A DNA stretch of 64,000 nucleotides from Caballeronia concitans. GTDB taxonomy: Bacteria > Pseudomonadota > Gammaproteobacteria > Burkholderiales > Burkholderiaceae. The stretch covers positions 124,001 through 188,000 of the forward strand of contig NZ_FCNV02000004.1 in NCBI RefSeq assembly GCF_001544615.1, written 5' to 3'. Below are positions 33,884 to 41,386 of this stretch, piece after piece. The notes beneath the pieces are model-generated. The model ran no database searches. It was not told where the DNA came from and saw nothing but the letters and a program-made list of their open reading frames with translations. A program made the translations under genes and the position numbers. How positions within the stretch are numbered: position 1 is the first letter of the stretch; every line of letters starts with the position of its first letter.

Positions 33884-33990
33884 CGCGGCGGTTCGGCGAG
33901 CGGCGTCCTGTTTCACTTGGTGCCGCCATGCCGCAAGACCTTCTCAGCAGGTTTCGTGCGCGTTCCTATGTGATCGTCTCGGACCTTCGT

Positions 33991-34517
33991 TCAGACCGGT
34001 ACTTCGCCTTCGGCGTACGCTGCGTCGAAGAGTGCTTCGAGCACGGGATGAACGCCGCGCATCGGATCGACCACGCGCCTTGCCCAGTTGAAATAGTCCC
34101 GTTTCCTCTCTGAATCCCAATCCGCAGGCGGCATGGCCACGATGTCGCGCAGGTTGCAGATCTTGTCCGCGAGCTTGACGAGCTTGCCTGATCGCTGATT
34201 CGCGCCGCGTGCTCGATCTGGAGGCGCTTGCGCTCGGCCTTCGGTAATGACTTGTCGTCGGTCACTTCCATCACGATCGGCGCGACGTCTTCCCCGAAAA
34301 TCTCCGCCAGTTCTGCTGGAGACGTGTCGGTGTCCTCGACCGTGTCATGGAGAACCGCCGAGATCAGCACGGCTTCGTCTGTCACGCCGGCTTCATTCGC
34401 AAGCACGTTTGCAAGTGCGATCGGGTGATTGATGTAGGGCGACGCCTGCGCGTCCTTGCGTCGTTGGTTGCGATGCTTGGCCGCCGCAAACGCCATCGCT
34501 TGAATGAGTCGATTCAT
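33991..34517 (-). pseudogene. Frameshifted HD-domain (p)ppGpp hydrolase-like gene
   Basis: The first part (34517 down to ~34190) encodes a RelA/SpoT-type HD hydrolase start: [33 protein letters not shown] (HD metal motif), then [14 protein letters not shown]. The reading frame then shifts by one base near 34184-34190. In the other frame the expected continuation appears, [24 protein letters not shown] and so on, to a TGA at 33991. One missing base (expected GCAAAG, present GCAAG, on the coding strand) explains it. It resembles stand-alone small alarmone hydrolases (MESH1-like). Either a real pseudogene or a sequencing error. The start at 34517 has GGGGAAG upstream. Confidence 0.8.
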
Positions 34518-35023
34518 CAATTGCTCTTCCCCTGTGTGGTTCATCGTACAGAAAATTCAGACGCCGTCTCCGACTAACTAGTGCGATTCATTCCTTATTC
34601 GCGCGTCGATAGACTTTCTTTAATATTAATTTTCGCGCGCATTTCATTTGCCTTGCACTGCGCAAATCAGAATTGCAACTTACTCCACGCGTAGCGGTAA
34701 AAAAGCACAGTGCAATAACTGACTCAAAGCCAACGCGATTTCCGTCGCGGAAAAGCGAAGACGTCCGTCCGGCAAGACGCAGCGCTCATGAAGGACCACC
34801 GTGCGCCATCGCACGGACGGCTCCCCCTTTTAATTCGTTAAATACGATAAAACTACCTCGACGGTGCGTGCGAGGGCTCTTCGAGCCTAAACAATTCTTT
34901 GAGCAAATCACCACCACCTGTACACCCCGGCCTAAATAACCTTAAAGGGCCCTTGAAACGTAGACCCGTTTCGAACCCGATTGGCCAATACGCTTTGGCC
35001 ATGTACAAGGGAAACCGACACAA
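34518..35023. promoter_or_regulatory. Long AT-richer leader region ahead of the carrier-protein operon
   Basis: 506 bp without a supported gene. It is less GC-rich than its surroundings around 34610-34650 (tttaatattaattttcg) and 34830-34860. It contains a GGGCCC-centred palindrome (aagggccctt, 34946-34955) and the repeated word ttggcca (34980 and 34994 area) including attggccaat. It must hold the promoter of the ACP operon and could carry a long 5' leader. No riboswitch or terminator was recognised. Confidence 0.45.
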
Positions 35024-35275
35024 ATGAAAACTGAATTGCGCCGCATCCTTTCCGAGTCCGCACGCCTCGACGTGCCCATCGACACACTCTCCGACAACGA
35101 CGATCTCTACGCCGCCGGTCTCTCATCGCTCGCCACGGTTCACGTGATGCTCGCAATCGAAGATGAGTTCGGCGTCGAGATTCCTGACCACATGCTCACG
35201 CGCCGTCTGTTCTCCAGCGTCGATTCGCTCGCCGCCGCTGTCGACGAACTACGTCGTTCGCAGGCGGCAGCATGA
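35024..35275 (+). CDS. Stand-alone acyl/aminoacyl carrier protein
   Basis: 83 residues, a small acidic four-helix carrier protein. The phosphopantetheine attachment site reads AAGLSSLATV; Ser35 is the modified residue (GLSSL instead of the usual GxDSL). It is not a fatty-acid ACP: its neighbours are a carrier-protein amino acid ligase and an acyl-CoA-dehydrogenase-like enzyme. In characterised homologous systems (Bradyrhizobium, Agrobacterium) such carriers are loaded with glycine or alanine. The stop overlaps the next start by 4 bp (ATGA). Confidence 0.88.
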   Translation: MKTELRRILSESARLDVPIDTLSDNDDLYAAGLSSLATVHVMLAIEDEFGVEIPDHMLTRRLFSSVDSLAAAVDELRRSQAAA

Positions 35276-36537
35276 ACGCCGCGACGCAGGAGCTGGAAGC
35301 GTCGCAACTCGCGCAAGCCGATCGCAGCGCGGCCCCACGCAGCGAAGCCGAGTTGCTGGAAGCCGCGCATCGCGTCGCGGCAATCGCGGCCAAGCATGCG
35401 GATGCAGTCGACAAGGATGCACGCTTTCCTGCCGAAGCGATAGCCGCCATGCGCGCCGAGCGGCTTTTTTCCGCGATGGTCCCGACCGCTCATGGCGGCG
35501 ATGGCCTCACGCTCAGCGGCGTCGCGCACCTGTGCGAGACGCTTGCAAAAGGCTGCGCTTCCGCCGCCATGATCTACGCGATGCATCAAACCCAGGTCGT
35601 ATGCATCGTCGATCATGGCGTGAACGTGCCGTGGCAACGCGACTTTCTCGCGCGCATGGTGAGCGAGCAGTTGCTTCTCGCATCGGCGACATCCGAAGAA
35701 ACGATTGGCGGCAACATGCGCACGAGTGCCTGCGCCGTCGATCTCGTCGATGATGCGTTCACTATCGAGAAGCTCGCGACCACCATCTCGTACGGCAATT
35801 ATGCCGACTGCATTCTGGTGACGGCGCGCCGCCATCCCGATGCACCGGCATCCGATCAGGTGTTGATCGTGGCGCCGCGCGAGACCTGCACGCTGGAACA
35901 GCGCGGGACGTGGGACACGCTCGGCATGCGCGGCACATGCAGCGAAGGGCATCGGCTTATCGCGAAAGGATCGGCAGAACAGATCCTGCCTGTGCCCTTC
36001 TCGAAGATCGCCGACGAAAGCATGTTGCCCGTATCGCATACGCTGTGGTCGTCGGTATGGACCGGCATTGCATCGGATGCCGTGCACCGCGCGCATCAGT
36101 TTTTCCGCAATCAGGCGCGCGGCAAGCCGGGCGCATTGCCGCCCAGCGCATCGCGGCTTTCGCAAGCCGTGACGCTCGTGCGCATGATGCAGGCGCGTTT
36201 GCGCGAATCGCTCGCGGCCGTCGAAGCGGCGCAACGCGAACGTGCAACGCGTCAGGCCAGTCACGCCGAAGATATCGATGCGCCGCTGACCGCGTCCATC
36301 GGCCTCGCGTCCGACCTCAACATGCTGAAGCTCGCCATTTCTCAAACGGCGGTGAACGTCGTGCAGGAAACGCTGATGATCTGCGGCATGGCGGGCTATA
36401 AGAACGACACGCCTTTTAGCGTCGGGCGGCACTTGCGTGACCTGCATTCCGCGCCGCTCATGATCAGCAACGACCGCATCGAATTGAATACGGCGAACCT
36501 GCTGCTTGCGCAGCGCGCCGCAACCGGGGACCTATAA
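35272..36537 (+). CDS. Acyl-CoA-dehydrogenase-like flavoprotein, probably acting on a carrier-bound substrate
   Basis: 421 residues with the acyl-CoA dehydrogenase fold: a helical N-terminal domain (FSAMVPTAHGGDGLTLSG, 65-82), a beta domain (LLLASATSEET region) and a C-terminal four-helix domain (AVTLVRMMQARLRESL, then VVQETLMICGMAGYKNDTPFSVGRHLRDLHSAPLMISNDRIELN). The usual C-terminal catalytic glutamate position (YEGT-like) reads SNDR, so the base may have moved, as in carrier-specific and other divergent members. By position between the carrier protein and the ligase genes it probably oxidises an aminoacyl-S-carrier, comparable to prolyl-carrier dehydrogenases; this is inference. 4-bp overlap with the carrier gene, 4 bp before the ligase gene. 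Confidence 0.85.
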   Translation: MNAATQELEASQLAQADRSAAPRSEAELLEAAHRVAAIAAKHADAVDKDARFPAEAIAAMRAERLFSAMVPTAHGGDGLTLSGVAHLCETLAKGCASAAMIYAMHQTQVVCIVDHGVNVPWQRDFLARMVSEQLLLASATSEETIGGNMRTSACAVDLVDDAFTIEKLATTISYGNYADCILVTARRHPDAPASDQVLIVAPRETCTLEQRGTWDTLGMRGTCSEGHRLIAKGSAEQILPVPFSKIADESMLPVSHTLWSSVWTGIASDAVHRAHQFFRNQARGKPGALPPSASRLSQAVTLVRMMQARLRESLAAVEAAQRERATRQASHAEDIDAPLTASIGLASDLNMLKLAISQTAVNVVQETLMICGMAGYKNDTPFSVGRHLRDLHSAPLMISNDRIELNTANLLLAQRAATGDL

Positions 36538-36541
36538 CGAT

Positions 36542-37600
36542 ATGAACATGCCGACCGAACAAGCCGCGATCATGGCTGACGCAGAATCAAAAACGACGCA
36601 GGCTGCTTACGACAAATCAGACCTGACTCTGCGCGACCGATTGATCGAAGCGGGCATTCTCATCGACACGGGCGAAGATGGACTCTATGGCCGCAGCGCG
36701 ATCTTCGAAGATATCGTCGAGCGCCTGAATCAGGCCATCACGCTGCTCGGCGCGGACCAGCACGCCGAAGTGCTGCGCTTTCCGCCGGCCATGCGTCGCC
36801 GTGATTTCGAAGATAGTGAGTACCTGAAGAGCTTCCCGAATCTGGCCGGCACGGTTCATTCGTTCGCGGGCAACGACCGCGGGCATCATCGCCTGCTCGA
36901 GGCGCTCGACAAGATCGTGCATATCGGCGAAGAAGAAGAGCGTTCGGATGAATGGATGGATCAGCAAAAGCCGACACGTCTCGTCCTGACGCCGGCCGCG
37001 TGCTATCCGATTTATCCGCTCGTTGCGAAGCGCGGAAATCTCGCTAAAGACGGCGCAACGTTCGACGCATTCTCGTACTGCTTCCGTCATGAGCCGTCCA
37101 TCGATCCGGGCCGCATGCAAATGTTCCGCATGCGTGAGTACATTCGCGTCGGCAGCCCTGAGCAAGTCATGGCATTCAGACAGAAATGGATCGAGCGCGG
37201 ATCGCTGCTCGTGAAATTGCTGCAATTGCCGTTCGAGATCGACCTCGCCAACGACCCGTTCTTTGGACGCGGCGGCAAAATAGTCGCGGATAGCCAGCGC
37301 GCACAAGAGCTCAAGTTCGAATTGCTCGTGCCAGTGGCCACGCCTGACCGTCCGACCGCATGTCTCTCGTTCAACTATCACATGGAGCACTTCGGCGAAT
37401 TGTGGAACATTCGCCAGGCGGACGAGAGCGTCGCTCATACGGCATGCGTGGGCTTCGGCATGGAACGCACGACGCTCGCCCTCTTCCGTCATCATGGCCT
37501 CGACGTGAAGGCATGGCCCGCACCGGTACGTGAACTGCTGTGGGGCAATGCAGCGCCGATCATCGCCGATGGTCTTTCCAACCTGGGCAAAGCGGCATGA
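36542..37600 (+). CDS. Amino acid:[carrier protein] ligase (class II aaRS homologue)
   Basis: 352 residues, a truncated relative of atypical (zinc) seryl-tRNA synthetases with no tRNA-binding arm. Class II motif 2 is FRHEPSIDPGRMQMFRMREY and motif 3 is GFGMERTTLALF. The zinc ligands expected from the Bradyrhizobium enzyme are present: Cys154 (AACYPIYP), Glu199 (RMREYIRV) and Cys302 (HTACVGFG). Characterised homologues adenylate glycine or alanine and transfer it to the phosphopantetheine of a small carrier protein rather than to tRNA. The carrier gene here is two genes upstream. The start at 36542 is 4 bp after the flavoprotein stop; the stop overlaps the DUF1839 start by 4 bp. Confidence 0.92.
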   Translation: MNMPTEQAAIMADAESKTTQAAYDKSDLTLRDRLIEAGILIDTGEDGLYGRSAIFEDIVERLNQAITLLGADQHAEVLRFPPAMRRRDFEDSEYLKSFPNLAGTVHSFAGNDRGHHRLLEALDKIVHIGEEEERSDEWMDQQKPTRLVLTPAACYPIYPLVAKRGNLAKDGATFDAFSYCFRHEPSIDPGRMQMFRMREYIRVGSPEQVMAFRQKWIERGSLLVKLLQLPFEIDLANDPFFGRGGKIVADSQRAQELKFELLVPVATPDRPTACLSFNYHMEHFGELWNIRQADESVAHTACVGFGMERTTLALFRHHGLDVKAWPAPVRELLWGNAAPIIADGLSNLGKAA

Positions 37601-38589
37601 ACGCACGCTCGCCCGCTGAAGCGCTGACTGGCACAGACGACGAAGCAAGCCGCCATGCATTGCATCGCGGCGAGCGTGTCTGGCTCGAAACCAACTGCTA
37701 TGTCGATTTGTGGATCGAGCTCTTGCACCATCTGGGCTGCGATCCGCATGCGGCGCTCGGTTTCACCGTGACGCAGGCATTCGAGGGGGATCAGTTCACG
37801 TTTCCGAAGTTCTCGCTCGATGACATAGGCAGGCTCTACGGCCTGCAAGCGCAAGAGCTTGCCATTTACGACACGCTCGAAGCACACGTGTGCGAACAGA
37901 CGAAACGCGGGCATGTCGTGGTCGCCGAAGTCGACGCATTCTATTTGCCCGATACGCGCGCCACCGCTTATCGGCAAACTCACTCAAAGACGACCATCGC
38001 AGTCGATTCGATCGACGCTCAGGCCAAACGCATCACGTATTTTCATAACGCCGGCTATTTCGCGCTATCGGGTGAAGATTACGATGCGGTATTCAGACTG
38101 ACGCCCGAACTGGCCAGCGACGTGAACGTGCTTTTCCCTTACGTCGAATTCGTCAAGCGCTTGCGGGCGCCGCTGGAAGGCGACGCGCTCGTGCAACGCT
38201 CCGTCGACTTGCTCAAGCTGCGTCTCGAGGATCGTCCCGCGACGAACCCGATTTCGCAATGGCGCGCGGAATTTCCCGATCATTCACGTGCCCTGCTCGA
38301 GCGCGATGTGGCGTACTACCACCTGTACACGTTCAACGTGATGCGTCAGCTTGGATCGAACTTCGAGTTGCTGTCGAAGTATCTTGCGTGGCTGAATGCG
38401 CACGGCGTCGATATTCCAGTGGATATTCAATCGAACGCACAAGCCATTGCAAGCGAAGCAATGGTGATGCAGTTCCGTCTCGCGCGTGCGCGCATGCGCT
38501 CGCGTTCCGATCCTTGCACGGATTGCTTCGACTCACTCGAAGCAGCGTATGACAAGGTCATCGAGCCGCTTGCCGCGCGCTTTCTTTGA
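37597..38589 (+). CDS. DUF1839 family protein
   Basis: 330 residues, no signal peptide or membrane span. It matches DUF1839 by its opening WLETNCYVDLWIELLHHLGCDPHAALGFTV, the conserved VAEVDAFYLPDT block and a helical C-terminal half. The conserved Glu/Asp/Tyr in VVAEVDAFYLPDT and the cysteine early on (NCYVD) are candidate active-site residues. DUF1839 genes habitually lie beside amino acid:[carrier protein] ligases, so it likely takes the aminoacyl group from the carrier, for example as a transferase or condensing enzyme; not proven. The fold of the middle region, with a possible papain/transglutaminase-like look, is a guess. A hairpin follows 10 bp after the stop. Confidence 0.85.
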   Translation: MNARSPAEALTGTDDEASRHALHRGERVWLETNCYVDLWIELLHHLGCDPHAALGFTVTQAFEGDQFTFPKFSLDDIGRLYGLQAQELAIYDTLEAHVCEQTKRGHVVVAEVDAFYLPDTRATAYRQTHSKTTIAVDSIDAQAKRITYFHNAGYFALSGEDYDAVFRLTPELASDVNVLFPYVEFVKRLRAPLEGDALVQRSVDLLKLRLEDRPATNPISQWRAEFPDHSRALLERDVAYYHLYTFNVMRQLGSNFELLSKYLAWLNAHGVDIPVDIQSNAQAIASEAMVMQFRLARARMRSRSDPCTDCFDSLEAAYDKVIEPLAARFL

Positions 38590-38598
38590 ACTCACCTA

Positions 38599-38639
38599 AA
38601 GCCTGAGCCTCGCGTACGCACGGCTCAGGCTTGCTTTTA
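38599..38639 (+). terminator. Strong hairpin between DUF1839 and GH2 genes
   Basis: An 11-bp perfect stem (aagcctgagcc 38599-38609, ggctcaggctt 38622-38632) with a 12-base loop is followed by gctttta. It looks like an intrinsic terminator with a short U-tract, yet the next gene starts only 28 bp later on the same strand without room for its own promoter. It may act as a partial terminator that lowers expression of the GH2 gene. Confidence 0.75.
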
Positions 38640-38666
38640 GAAAAAAAACAACTCGAAGGAAATGCC

Positions 38667-41144
38667 ATGCACGTCTCGCCGCTCGCGCCGCGCCGTCTGG
38701 ACGCCGGCTGGCAATGCGTGAGCACGCCCGCAGGCGCGTGCCCGACACCTGAAACGCTCGATACGTTCACGAACTGGCTCGACGCGCCCGTGCCGGGAAC
38801 CGTCGCGTCCGCGCATCGCGCTGCAGGCATTCAAGACGACTCACTCGCGCAACCGTATGCGATGTTGGATCACTGGTATCGCACCACGCTCGAAGTGAAC
38901 GGCAAGCGACGCCTGCGTTTCAACGGACTCGCGACCATCGCGGAAGTGTGGATCGACGGCCGCAAGGTGCTCGATTCGGATTCGATGTTCGTCGCGCACG
39001 ATATCGACATCGAAATCGCGGGCAAAGCGACGCTCTTTCTTTGTTTCCGCTCCATTGCTCCGGCGCTTGCTGCAAGACGCGGTCGCGCACGCTGGCGTCC
39101 CAAGCTCGCTCAACCCGCGCCCCTGCGTAACGTCCGCACGACGCTGCTCGGGCATATGCCCGGCTGGTGTCCCGCGATACAGCCTGCGGGTCCTTGGCGT
39201 GCAGTGGAAATGATCGGCGAGTCTTCCGCATCGATCGACCGCGTGGAGATGGCATCGAATGTGGATGGCAGCGACGGCCTGCTCGATGTCACCGTGCGGT
39301 TCTATCACGCCCAGGCGCCCGAAGATCTGCGCCTCCAATGCGGTGAGGCATCGGTGGCGCTTCACTGGCGCGATGCGCATACGGTGACAGGCCGTGTGCG
39401 CGTGCGCGATGCACGCTTGTGGTGGCCGCATACGCATGGCGAAGCGGCGCGCTATGCAGTGAAAATCGCGGGTGGATCGTTTGGGGAAATCTCACTCGGT
39501 CATACTGCTTTTCGTTCGATCGAAGTGGATCGCGGCGCGGATGGCGCGGGCTTTCAACTCGTCGTGAACGGCGTACCCGTGTTTGCTCGCGGCGCATGCT
39601 GGACGTCCGCCGATATCGTCGCCCTCGACGCACCTCGCGAGAAGCTGAGCGCGATATTCGAAACGTGCCGTCAAGCGGGCCTTAACATCATTCGTGTGAG
39701 CGGCATAACGCTCTACGAATCGGATACCTTTTACGAACTGGCCGACGAGCACGGCATGCTCGTATGGCAGGACTTCGCATTCGCCAATTTCGATTACCCG
39801 ACCGACGAAGCATTCGAGCGAAGCGTGCAACGCGAAGCGGAGCAATTCCTTGCGCGCACGCGGCGCTTCGCATCGCTCGCCGTCTTGTGCGGCGGAAGCG
39901 AAGTGCATCAGCAGGCGGCCATGCTCGGCCTTCCCTTCGACGCGTATCAGCAGCGGCTCTTTACCGAGCAATTGCCTGCGATCATCGCAACGATGCGGCC
40001 GGATGTGCCGTACGTCGTCAACTCACCGAGCGCAGCACCCGGCGACACGCGATCGATGCCCTTCGGAACGCGCGGCGGCGTCACGCATTACTACGGCGTC
40101 GGGGCCTATCAGCGTCCCTTCGACGATGCACGTCGCGCACAGGTCCGCTTCGCATCTGAATGCCTCGCGTTCGCGAACGTCCCCGACGACGTGGCGTTGC
40201 GCGCAGTGCCCAACGCATCGCGGCCGCATGAGCCGCGATGGAAGATCGGCGTACCGCGCGATCCGGGTGCGGCCTGGGATTTCGACGACGTACGCGAGCA
40301 TTATTTGCGAACGCTCTATGACGTCGACGTCGCCCGCTTGCGATACGAAGATCCCGAGCGCTATTTGACGCTCTCGCGCGCCGTGGTCGCCGATGTCATC
40401 GGTGCAGTGTTTTCCGAATGGCGTCGCAAGGGATCGATATGTGCGGGCGGCATCGTGTGGAACATGCTCGATTTGCGCGCGGGCTCGGGGTGGGGTGTGA
40501 TCGATGTATTCGGCGTGCCGAAGAGCGCCTTGCATGGCCTGGCACGCGTGCTTCAGCCCATTCAGGTGCTGATCACCGACGAAGGCCTCGACGGTCTCGA
40601 TGTGCATCTCGTGAACGAAACCGCGCACGACATTTGCGTTCGCGTGGACATGGCGTGCTTGCGCGATGGCGCGCTCAAGGTTGCGGGCGGCTCACGCGAA
40701 CTCACGCTCAAGGCACGCAGCGTCGAGCGAGTGAATTCGAGTGAGTTGAATGGCGCCTTTTTCGATATTGCGTATGCGTACCGTTTCGGTCCTCGCGCGC
40801 ATGATGCAACGCATGTGCGGCTAAGTGATTTGGATACCGGCATCGTACTGTCCGAAGCCTTTCACTTTCCGGACATGACTGTTCGCGAGCGACGGGATGT
40901 GGGTCTAAGCGTTGCAGTCGAACAGAACGATGGCAAGTGGACGCTCGAGATCAGTGCAACGGAACTTGCACGCTGGGTGCACGTGGTCGATCCGAATTAC
41001 TATGCCGCCGTCGACTGGTTCCATCTGGCGCCCGGCAGCACGCGAACGGTCCCGCTCATTGCCCGCAACGCCAACGTGCGCCAGGCGCCGGAAGGCGATG
41101 TATTCGCGATCAACGGTATGCGCGGCGCTACGTATCGCGCTTGA
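38667..41144 (+). CDS. Glycoside hydrolase family 2 protein, beta-mannosidase-like
   Basis: 825 residues with GH2 order: an N-terminal sugar-binding jelly-roll domain (~15-170), an immunoglobulin-like domain (~175-270), a TIM barrel (~275-600) and C-terminal sandwich domains. The acid/base candidate is Glu412 in LCGGSEVHQQ (usually GNE) and the nucleophile candidate is Glu498 in FASECLAF. There is no signal peptide, so it is cytoplasmic. The closest family is beta-mannosidase-like, but substrate is not deducible. Placement after the aminoacyl-carrier genes suggests that a glycoside is part of the pathway. Start at 38667 has AAGGA upstream. A hairpin lies between it and DUF1839. Confidence 0.88.
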   Translation: MHVSPLAPRRLDAGWQCVSTPAGACPTPETLDTFTNWLDAPVPGTVASAHRAAGIQDDSLAQPYAMLDHWYRTTLEVNGKRRLRFNGLATIAEVWIDGRKVLDSDSMFVAHDIDIEIAGKATLFLCFRSIAPALAARRGRARWRPKLAQPAPLRNVRTTLLGHMPGWCPAIQPAGPWRAVEMIGESSASIDRVEMASNVDGSDGLLDVTVRFYHAQAPEDLRLQCGEASVALHWRDAHTVTGRVRVRDARLWWPHTHGEAARYAVKIAGGSFGEISLGHTAFRSIEVDRGADGAGFQLVVNGVPVFARGACWTSADIVALDAPREKLSAIFETCRQAGLNIIRVSGITLYESDTFYELADEHGMLVWQDFAFANFDYPTDEAFERSVQREAEQFLARTRRFASLAVLCGGSEVHQQAAMLGLPFDAYQQRLFTEQLPAIIATMRPDVPYVVNSPSAAPGDTRSMPFGTRGGVTHYYGVGAYQRPFDDARRAQVRFASECLAFANVPDDVALRAVPNASRPHEPRWKIGVPRDPGAAWDFDDVREHYLRTLYDVDVARLRYEDPERYLTLSRAVVADVIGAVFSEWRRKGSICAGGIVWNMLDLRAGSGWGVIDVFGVPKSALHGLARVLQPIQVLITDEGLDGLDVHLVNETAHDICVRVDMACLRDGALKVAGGSRELTLKARSVERVNSSELNGAFFDIAYAYRFGPRAHDATHVRLSDLDTGIVLSEAFHFPDMTVRERRDVGLSVAVEQNDGKWTLEISATELARWVHVVDPNYYAAVDWFHLAPGSTRTVPLIARNANVRQAPEGDVFAINGMRGATYRA

Positions 41145-41296: not shown

Positions 41297-41386
41297 GCGA
41301 TTGCGCGAATCGGCGGCGAACCGTAAAGCCAAGCAGCGATTTTTGTCTTGCTAAGATTTTCGCGTCCGTCGCCTAGAGGTCCGCGT

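Follow-up and report, generated by a model that had tools for sequence, protein, structure and literature searches.

A five-gene Caballeronia operon predicted to join a carrier-bound, oxidised amino acid to an amine

What could be made by five co-directional genes that encode a stand-alone carrier protein, a flavoprotein of the acyl-CoA dehydrogenase fold, an amino acid:[carrier protein] ligase, a DUF1839 protein and a glycoside hydrolase of family 2 (GH2)? Such genes occupy the + strand at 35024-41144 of a 64,000-nucleotide stretch of the Caballeronia concitans genome (hereafter the window). On balance we favour a conjugation pathway independent of non-ribosomal peptide synthetases (NRPS), in which an amino acid would be loaded onto the carrier, oxidised there and transferred by DUF1839 to an amine, and in which GH2 would act on a glycosidic part; each of these reactions is inferred, and so are the identities of amino acid, acceptor and product.

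The system is already known as a prediction, because a note in proof by Iyer, Abhiman, Burroughs and Aravind (2010) lists the same genes and chemistry (PMC2922099). It describes a neighbourhood of a paralogous seryl-tRNA synthetase, an acyl carrier protein, a redox enzyme, a conserved uncharacterised protein and a glycosidase, and predicts a monooxygenation of the aminoacyl group by the redox enzyme and, for the uncharacterised protein, the formation of an amide on an amino sugar at the cell surface. The prediction takes up one paragraph, with no fold or active-site argument in the main text. Its uncharacterised protein, Atu2574, we read as DUF1839 from the same gene order only. A first inspection of the window sequence (the original prediction) had called the pathway uncharacterised; this is right as to the product, but the neighbourhood and most of the scheme had been published in 2010. 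The product is not named in the open-access literature searched, subscription papers being outside that search. New here are the fold-level and active-site evidence, the structure of core and tails, the co-occurrence counts, a downstream hydrolase and the DUF1839 copies without cysteine. Through the fold tie of DUF1839 to solved carrier-dependent transferases and the proposed non-dehydrogenase chemistry of the flavoprotein, the 2010 prediction becomes one of measurable mass shifts and one acyl-cysteine adduct. The operon would also offer enzymes with which oxidised amino acids could be linked to amino sugars as amides without an NRPS.

The five genes as a unit

The layout, coordinates and spacing first described for the operon were borne out by the open reading frames (ORFs) of the window (Table 1). 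The carrier and flavoprotein genes overlap by 4 base pairs (bp), a gap of 4 bp separates the flavoprotein from the ligase gene, and the ligase and DUF1839 genes again overlap by 4 bp. GH2 starts 77 or 41 bp past the end of DUF1839, depending on whether ATG 38667 or TTG 38631 is used. Between the window and six chosen relatives, the ratio of non-synonymous to synonymous substitution rates (dN/dS) was 0.04-0.18 across the five genes, and judged from these values purifying selection acts on all of them. The best 15-residue N-terminal hydropathy was 0.46-0.95 for the four enzymes, whereas a membrane protein encoded in the window reached 2.8; having no hydrophobic N-terminal stretch, the enzymes are probably cytosolic. 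A HAD gene at 41384 was rejected as a further member, a homologue being present in just one of 80 loci (L055) and in a different place.

These 80 loci with a DUF1839 protein are the best 80 of at least 569 relatives, nearly all from Caballeronia, Paraburkholderia or Burkholderia. All five genes were found in the same order on one strand in 73 of them, in line with the constant company that the original prediction expected. The seven exceptions comprise two loci truncated where the contig ends (L052, L098), three in partial decay (L049, L059, L068) and two in which DUF1839 stands without the cassette (L110, L115). As the 80 loci are close relatives, a draw of 398 Pseudomonadota genomes, including the window's own and a few of its kin, was added. 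DUF1839 was present in 16 of these genomes and a ligase over the cut-off in 28, all 16 lying within the 28 (Fisher p ~2e-21), and DUF1839, ligase and GH2 occurred together in 16 of 16. The five-gene block is a real unit. When neighbourhoods of ligase homologues were compared, as had been suggested at the outset, constancy was seen for the flavoprotein, which adjoins the ligase in 28 of 28 over-cut-off loci (25 in L153-L177, and the window, L119 and L122) and thus belongs with it whatever the tail, but not for DUF1839 and GH2, which stand beside it in 16 of the 28. The other cassette genes were not found in ten fetched loci with ligase relatives under the cut-off, of which the draw held 16 genomes.

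DUF1839 occurs in 53 of 58 genomes of the genus, and the five without it have genomes of at most 3.9 megabases. Plasmid records with both DUF1839 and ligase include Rhizobium, Azospirillum, Mycetohabitans, Shinella and Cupriavidus. Degraded cassettes were seen in L049, L059, L068 and L110; L049 is from Candidatus Burkholderia humilis, a leaf-nodule symbiont, and L059 and L110 still have an open DUF1839 frame, with the upstream genes broken or absent.

Predicted functions of the enzymes

Ser35, the predicted phosphopantetheine site of the carrier, is kept in 20 of 20 aligned proteins. In the ligase, Cys154, Glu199 and Cys302 align with a Cys, a Glu and a Cys of Bll0957, a ligase of solved structure (PDB 3mey, 4h2w), in which we take these three residues to bind zinc. 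A residue check found both sites as originally given. The ligase is by its score a clear member of NF005479, and family membership and the solved relative support, at the level of sequence, the proposal that it loads an amino acid. In Bradyrhizobium, Bll0957 shares ligase family and zinc residues with the present enzyme and is adjoined by an acyl-CoA dehydrogenase, Bll0958; the difference is that DUF1839 and GH2 were absent from the stretch fetched in six loci taken for this genus. Bll0957 and Bll0958 are both listed as threefold up in a Bradyrhizobium phaR mutant (PMC10888616). Glycine is among the amino acids named for the ligase family, and the role of the amino acid attachment was given as still unknown in a 2022 review (PMC9437257).

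The flavoprotein does not fit the dehydrogenation on the carrier, as for prolyl carriers, that the original prediction assigned to it. We take the EGT-motif position and the helix-G position to be the two catalytic base positions of acyl-CoA dehydrogenases. At the former, 32 of 32 flavoproteins have Ile or Val (Ile398 in the window) and four dehydrogenases of the same genome have Glu; at the latter, all 32 have Ser, Ala or Thr (S255 in the window). Ten of 14 additional fetched loci were left out of this comparison, having no usable protein. G385, standing where VERMMRD elsewhere has its Glu, was rejected as the site of the missing base, since alignment with the same four dehydrogenases places it at I398. 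An M-I/V-x-N-D/H-R block takes the place of the EGT block of dehydrogenases, and H105, H256, W259 and W263 are invariant, unlike in the four dehydrogenases compared. The NCBIfam prolyl-carrier dehydrogenase model scored 31.9 bits (cut-off 650). With the AlphaFold2 (AF2) model, the ten best PDB folds were TdsC/DszC monooxygenases dependent on flavin mononucleotide (FMN), followed by human short-chain acyl-CoA dehydrogenase (SCAD) at rank 11 and KijD3 at rank 13. TdsC/DszC and KijD3 share this fold at 16-20% identity and, like the flavoprotein, are without the dehydrogenase Glu; they differ in that a substrate on a carrier protein is expected here.

As the catalytic base is absent at both positions in all 32 proteins, oxygenation and amine oxidation are both more probable than dehydrogenation, and of the two oxygenation is favoured; monooxygenation of the carrier-bound aminoacyl group is, judged from these residues, the most likely chemistry. 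If the amino acid is glycine, alpha,beta-dehydrogenation is impossible. Some results weigh against oxygenation. The template modelling (TM) score of a medium-chain dehydrogenase, MCAD (0.76), is as high as those of the top matches, and dehydrogenase scores are similar overall. A profile search of PDB sequences ranked two acyl-CoA dehydrogenases first and second, DnmZ third, then KijD3-type enzymes and a nitrososynthase twelfth; since the fold and profile orders differ, neither ranking decides the chemistry. D401, present in 31 of 32 flavoproteins, might also serve as a base.

The transfer proposed for DUF1839 is supported, as far as a structural model can tell, by the fold of carrier-dependent transferases. 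Foldseek searches with the AF2 model gave 16 PDB chains with E<=0.001, all of them AziU3/U2, CtaG or CcbD, in alignments of 326-380 columns including gaps that cover nearly the whole chain (TM 0.43-0.64). AziU3/U2 was the top match, and CcbD (7yn2_B) matched with E 5e-5, TM 0.62/0.59 and a root-mean-square deviation (rmsd) of 5.9. Phytochelatin synthase and other papain folds were found at E>=0.03 with query TM <=0.3. Of the proposed triad, His150 is kept in 35 of 35 and Cys34 in 30 of 35 aligned proteins, and 144 of 151 cassette-linked copies carry Cys34 (some rows being duplicates, 114 are distinct). In a 2023 survey DUF1839 is grouped with papain-like proteins whose triad is C-(T/S)-H, and glycan processing at the cell wall is suggested for it (PMC10318531). 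CcbD makes an amide from carrier-bound proline and an amino-octose via a Cys-bound acyl group (PMC12945683), and CtaG is proposed to transfer hydroxybenzoate between carriers, onto tri-beta-alanine held by the second (PMC6772006). The lincosamide synthetases CcbD/LmbD offer a parallel in which the coupling of a carrier-bound amino acid with an amino sugar falls to a cysteine-protease-like transferase, outside NRPS condensation domains. The present operon differs from them in having a ligase resembling aminoacyl-tRNA synthetases (aaRS) instead of an adenylation domain, and in the extra flavoprotein and GH2. CtaG (closthioamide) and AziU3/U2 (azinomycin) have the DUF1839 fold over about the whole chain but other substrates.

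Against a CcbD-like role it must be said that the rmsd of the fold matches is large (5.2-14.1), and that a profile search of PDB sequences to E 5 found no relation of DUF1839 to solved transferases, the one match, at E 0.44, being unrelated. The triad order is C-T/S-H compared to C-H-E in CcbD, with His third and not second. Kinship with BtrH was likewise not supported, the hhalign probability being 1.75 against five BtrH_N proteins (seven loci found).

The glycosidase assignment of GH2 is in agreement with the two catalytic residues, Glu412 and Glu498, which are kept in 24 of 24 sequences, and the nearest solved relatives by profile match are beta-mannosidases. The residue before the acid/base is Ser in 23 of the 24 (Ser411 in the window) and Asn in one, so the Asn-Glu motif is missing. 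In clan GH-A this Asn touches the 2-hydroxyl of the sugar, and with Ser in its place the sugar may therefore differ at C2, as an amino sugar would, which is speculation. Pfam matched an N-terminal and a weak Ig-like domain but not the barrel, which counts against the assignment. No signal peptide was evident from the N-terminal hydropathy of GH2.

Proposed pathway and its alternatives

In the conjugation pathway that we favour, the ligase would activate a small amino acid, glycine or alanine being likely, with ATP and load it on the Ser35-phosphopantetheine of the carrier. While still on the carrier, the aminoacyl group would then be oxidised by the flavoprotein; a monooxygenation (N-hydroxylation or further) is most likely here, not a classical dehydrogenation. 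DUF1839 would take the acyl group onto Cys34 and pass it to an amine, giving an amide in the manner of CcbD. The acceptor would probably be an amino sugar or its glycoside, whose glycosidic part the cytosolic GH2 would cleave or reshape; an acceptor gene is not present among the operon genes, which speaks against this scheme. A bolder version, which we regard as unlikely in its entirety, would be a minimal lincosamide-like line with an aaRS-derived ligase in place of the adenylation domain. On the carrier, N-oxidation of glycine or alanine would yield a hydroxylamine, oxime or nitroso warhead, which DUF1839 would couple to an amino sugar and a cytosolic GH2 would unmask or mature. The outcome would be a new family of glycosides from many plant-, insect- and soil-associated Proteobacteria, with the three-gene warhead core feeding other tails, such as a DdaF-like ATP-grasp ligase in Priestia.

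Two alternatives concern the chemistry. The flavoprotein could be an amine oxidase or dehydrogenase that converts the carrier-bound aminoacyl group to an imine (C-N oxidation, -2 Da), with transfer or hydrolysis as the next step; no Glu would be needed, as the hydride leaves C-alpha directly. There is a precedent in the same superfamily, the acyl-CoA dehydrogenase AzsF, which turns carrier-bound hydrazinoacetyl to hydrazonoacetyl at C-N (PMC10445470), and the two best PDB sequences by profile agree with it. With monooxygenases as the ten best folds, and with the invariant His and Trp residues and sequence block unlike those of the dehydrogenases, we consider amine oxidation rather improbable, though it deserves attention. 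Somewhat less probable still is that DUF1839 releases the modified amino acid as a thioesterase or ring-forming enzyme instead of making an amide. Its top fold match, AziU3/U2, is called aziridine synthase (PMC12559475), which also goes against amide synthesis, and the same core occurs with tails that have no DUF1839; CtaG and CcbD, however, match about the whole chain too, and the constant GH2 partner points to a sugar.

The other two concern the acceptor and the place of DUF1839 and GH2. According to Iyer et al. (2010) the acceptor would be a cell-surface polysaccharide or lipid-linked sugar, so that the envelope is decorated and no small molecule secreted. This differs from the favoured pathway in the acceptor only, and we see it as a serious possibility, though not the leading one. 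Liposaccharide genes lie near homologues (PMC2922099). Further, 14 of 15 Caballeronia genomes sampled have, in the same place, a second DUF1839 copy flanked by a glycosyltransferase on one side and an undecaprenyl-type sugar transferase on the other; this copy has, however, lost Cys34, and no envelope genes adjoin the operon in the window. Among 32 representative loci drawn from several classes, 16 have a double alpha/beta hydrolase of 600 residues downstream of GH2, 13 times within 270 bp and three times at 2.3-3.0 kilobases (kb), on the same strand in ten and the opposite strand in six. These hydrolases are 29-45% identical to the Azospirillum query protein, and the three that were scanned matched exosortase A-associated hydrolases 2 and 1 best, but under the curated cut-offs; the GH2 without signal peptide likewise fits an envelope role poorly. 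The double hydrolase is absent from the window. An unlinked 34% homologue elsewhere in the genome stands beside a GH15 trehalase-like gene and was set aside, as no link to the cassette emerged. That GH2 and DUF1839 are a separate catabolic pair merely neighbouring the aminoacyl-carrier module appears very improbable: 12 of 28 loci do have the core and lack this pair, and L110 and L115 (two of 80) hold DUF1839 alone, but none of the 398 genomes has DUF1839 and no ligase, the ligase and DUF1839 genes overlap, and the order is kept in 73 of 80 loci.

Other tails and second DUF1839 copies

The 12 ligase loci with the flavoprotein but without DUF1839 and GH2 carry varied tails. For example, L173 has a lipase-like hydrolase, an AMP-binding enzyme and a short-chain dehydrogenase, L175 a cupin and a class IV aminotransferase, and L176 enzymes like O-acetylhomoserine sulfhydrylase and homoserine succinyltransferase. 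In six loci of Bradyrhizobium type a conserved gene follows the ligase; it has no Pfam match and is GNAT-like by eye only. As the same three-gene core recurs with differing tails, carrier, flavoprotein and ligase look, by gene order, like one module making a modified aminoacyl thioester for several uses. Two Priestia plasmids (L188, L233) hold a holo-ACP synthase, carrier, flavoprotein, ligase, transporter, ATP-grasp enzyme, alanine permease and alanine racemase. The ATP-grasp enzyme is over the cut-off of PRK07206 and scores 211 bits for DdaF (dapdiamide synthase), under the cut-off of 840, and the cluster may be one for a dipeptide antibiotic with self-protection. It adjoins a ComX-type signalling gene.

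Table 1 Coordinates of the operon genes and of other features discussed (window positions unless a locus is named)
Feature	Location	Strand	Matches and residues
Stand-alone carrier protein	35024..35275	+	PP-binding; PRK07081/NF005480 126 bits, cut-off 72; Ser35 = 35126-35128
Acyl-CoA-dehydrogenase-fold flavoprotein without catalytic Glu	35272..36537	+	Pfam Acyl-CoA_dh_N; AF2 predicted local distance difference test (pLDDT) 89.7; base positions taken by I398 (36463-36465) and S255
Amino acid:[carrier protein] ligase, class II aaRS core	36542..37600	+	NF005479 516 bits, cut-off 357; Cys154/Glu199/Cys302
DUF1839, papain-like transferase (predicted)	37597..38589	+	PF08893 422 bits; AF2 pLDDT 90.2; proposed Cys34 (37696-37698), Thr133, His150
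GH2 beta-mannosidase-like enzyme	38667..41144	+	GH2 N-terminal domain (Pfam); Glu412 acid/base, Glu498 nucleophile, Ser411
HD_4 (RelA/SpoT-like) ORF	33966-34544	-	family match residues 16-111 of 192
Second DUF1839 copy, window's genome	L117 (contig C6 74000-93689), 9770-10834 of that stretch
DUF1839 pair, Cupriavidus type	L116 9944-10966 + 14743-15726		Crp-family regulator gene between
DUF1839 pair, Cupriavidus type	L164 10319-11296 + 15153-16127		Crp-family regulator gene between
Double hydrolase, example	L189 14304-16115
Double hydrolase, example	L190 14576-16426
Double hydrolase, example	L121 11390-13156

The second DUF1839 copy is also present in the window's own genome (Table 1). Cys34 is gone from it in 14 of 14 such Caballeronia genomes and dN/dS is still 0.13-0.29, by which measure the copy is under purifying selection. 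An ORF of 91 amino acids in front of it (L117:9498-9773) was rejected as its carrier, having no Pfam match and no carrier motif in translation. The situation is reversed in Cupriavidus-type loci, where the two copies lie a few kb apart: the copy in the cassette is without Cys34, which argues against the transfer assigned to this residue, and the second copy keeps it. On a tree of 38 DUF1839 rows the Cys label must change three times, as supported branches dictate; of the eight rows without Cys, one comes from a degraded locus. By analogy to AziU3/U2, a complex of two proteins in the solved structures, a pairing of active and inactive DUF1839 subunits is thinkable, but not as a general rule, because many genomes hold a single copy.

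Upstream of the cassette in the window, the HD_4 ORF is unlike its family outside the matching residues and is possibly disrupted.

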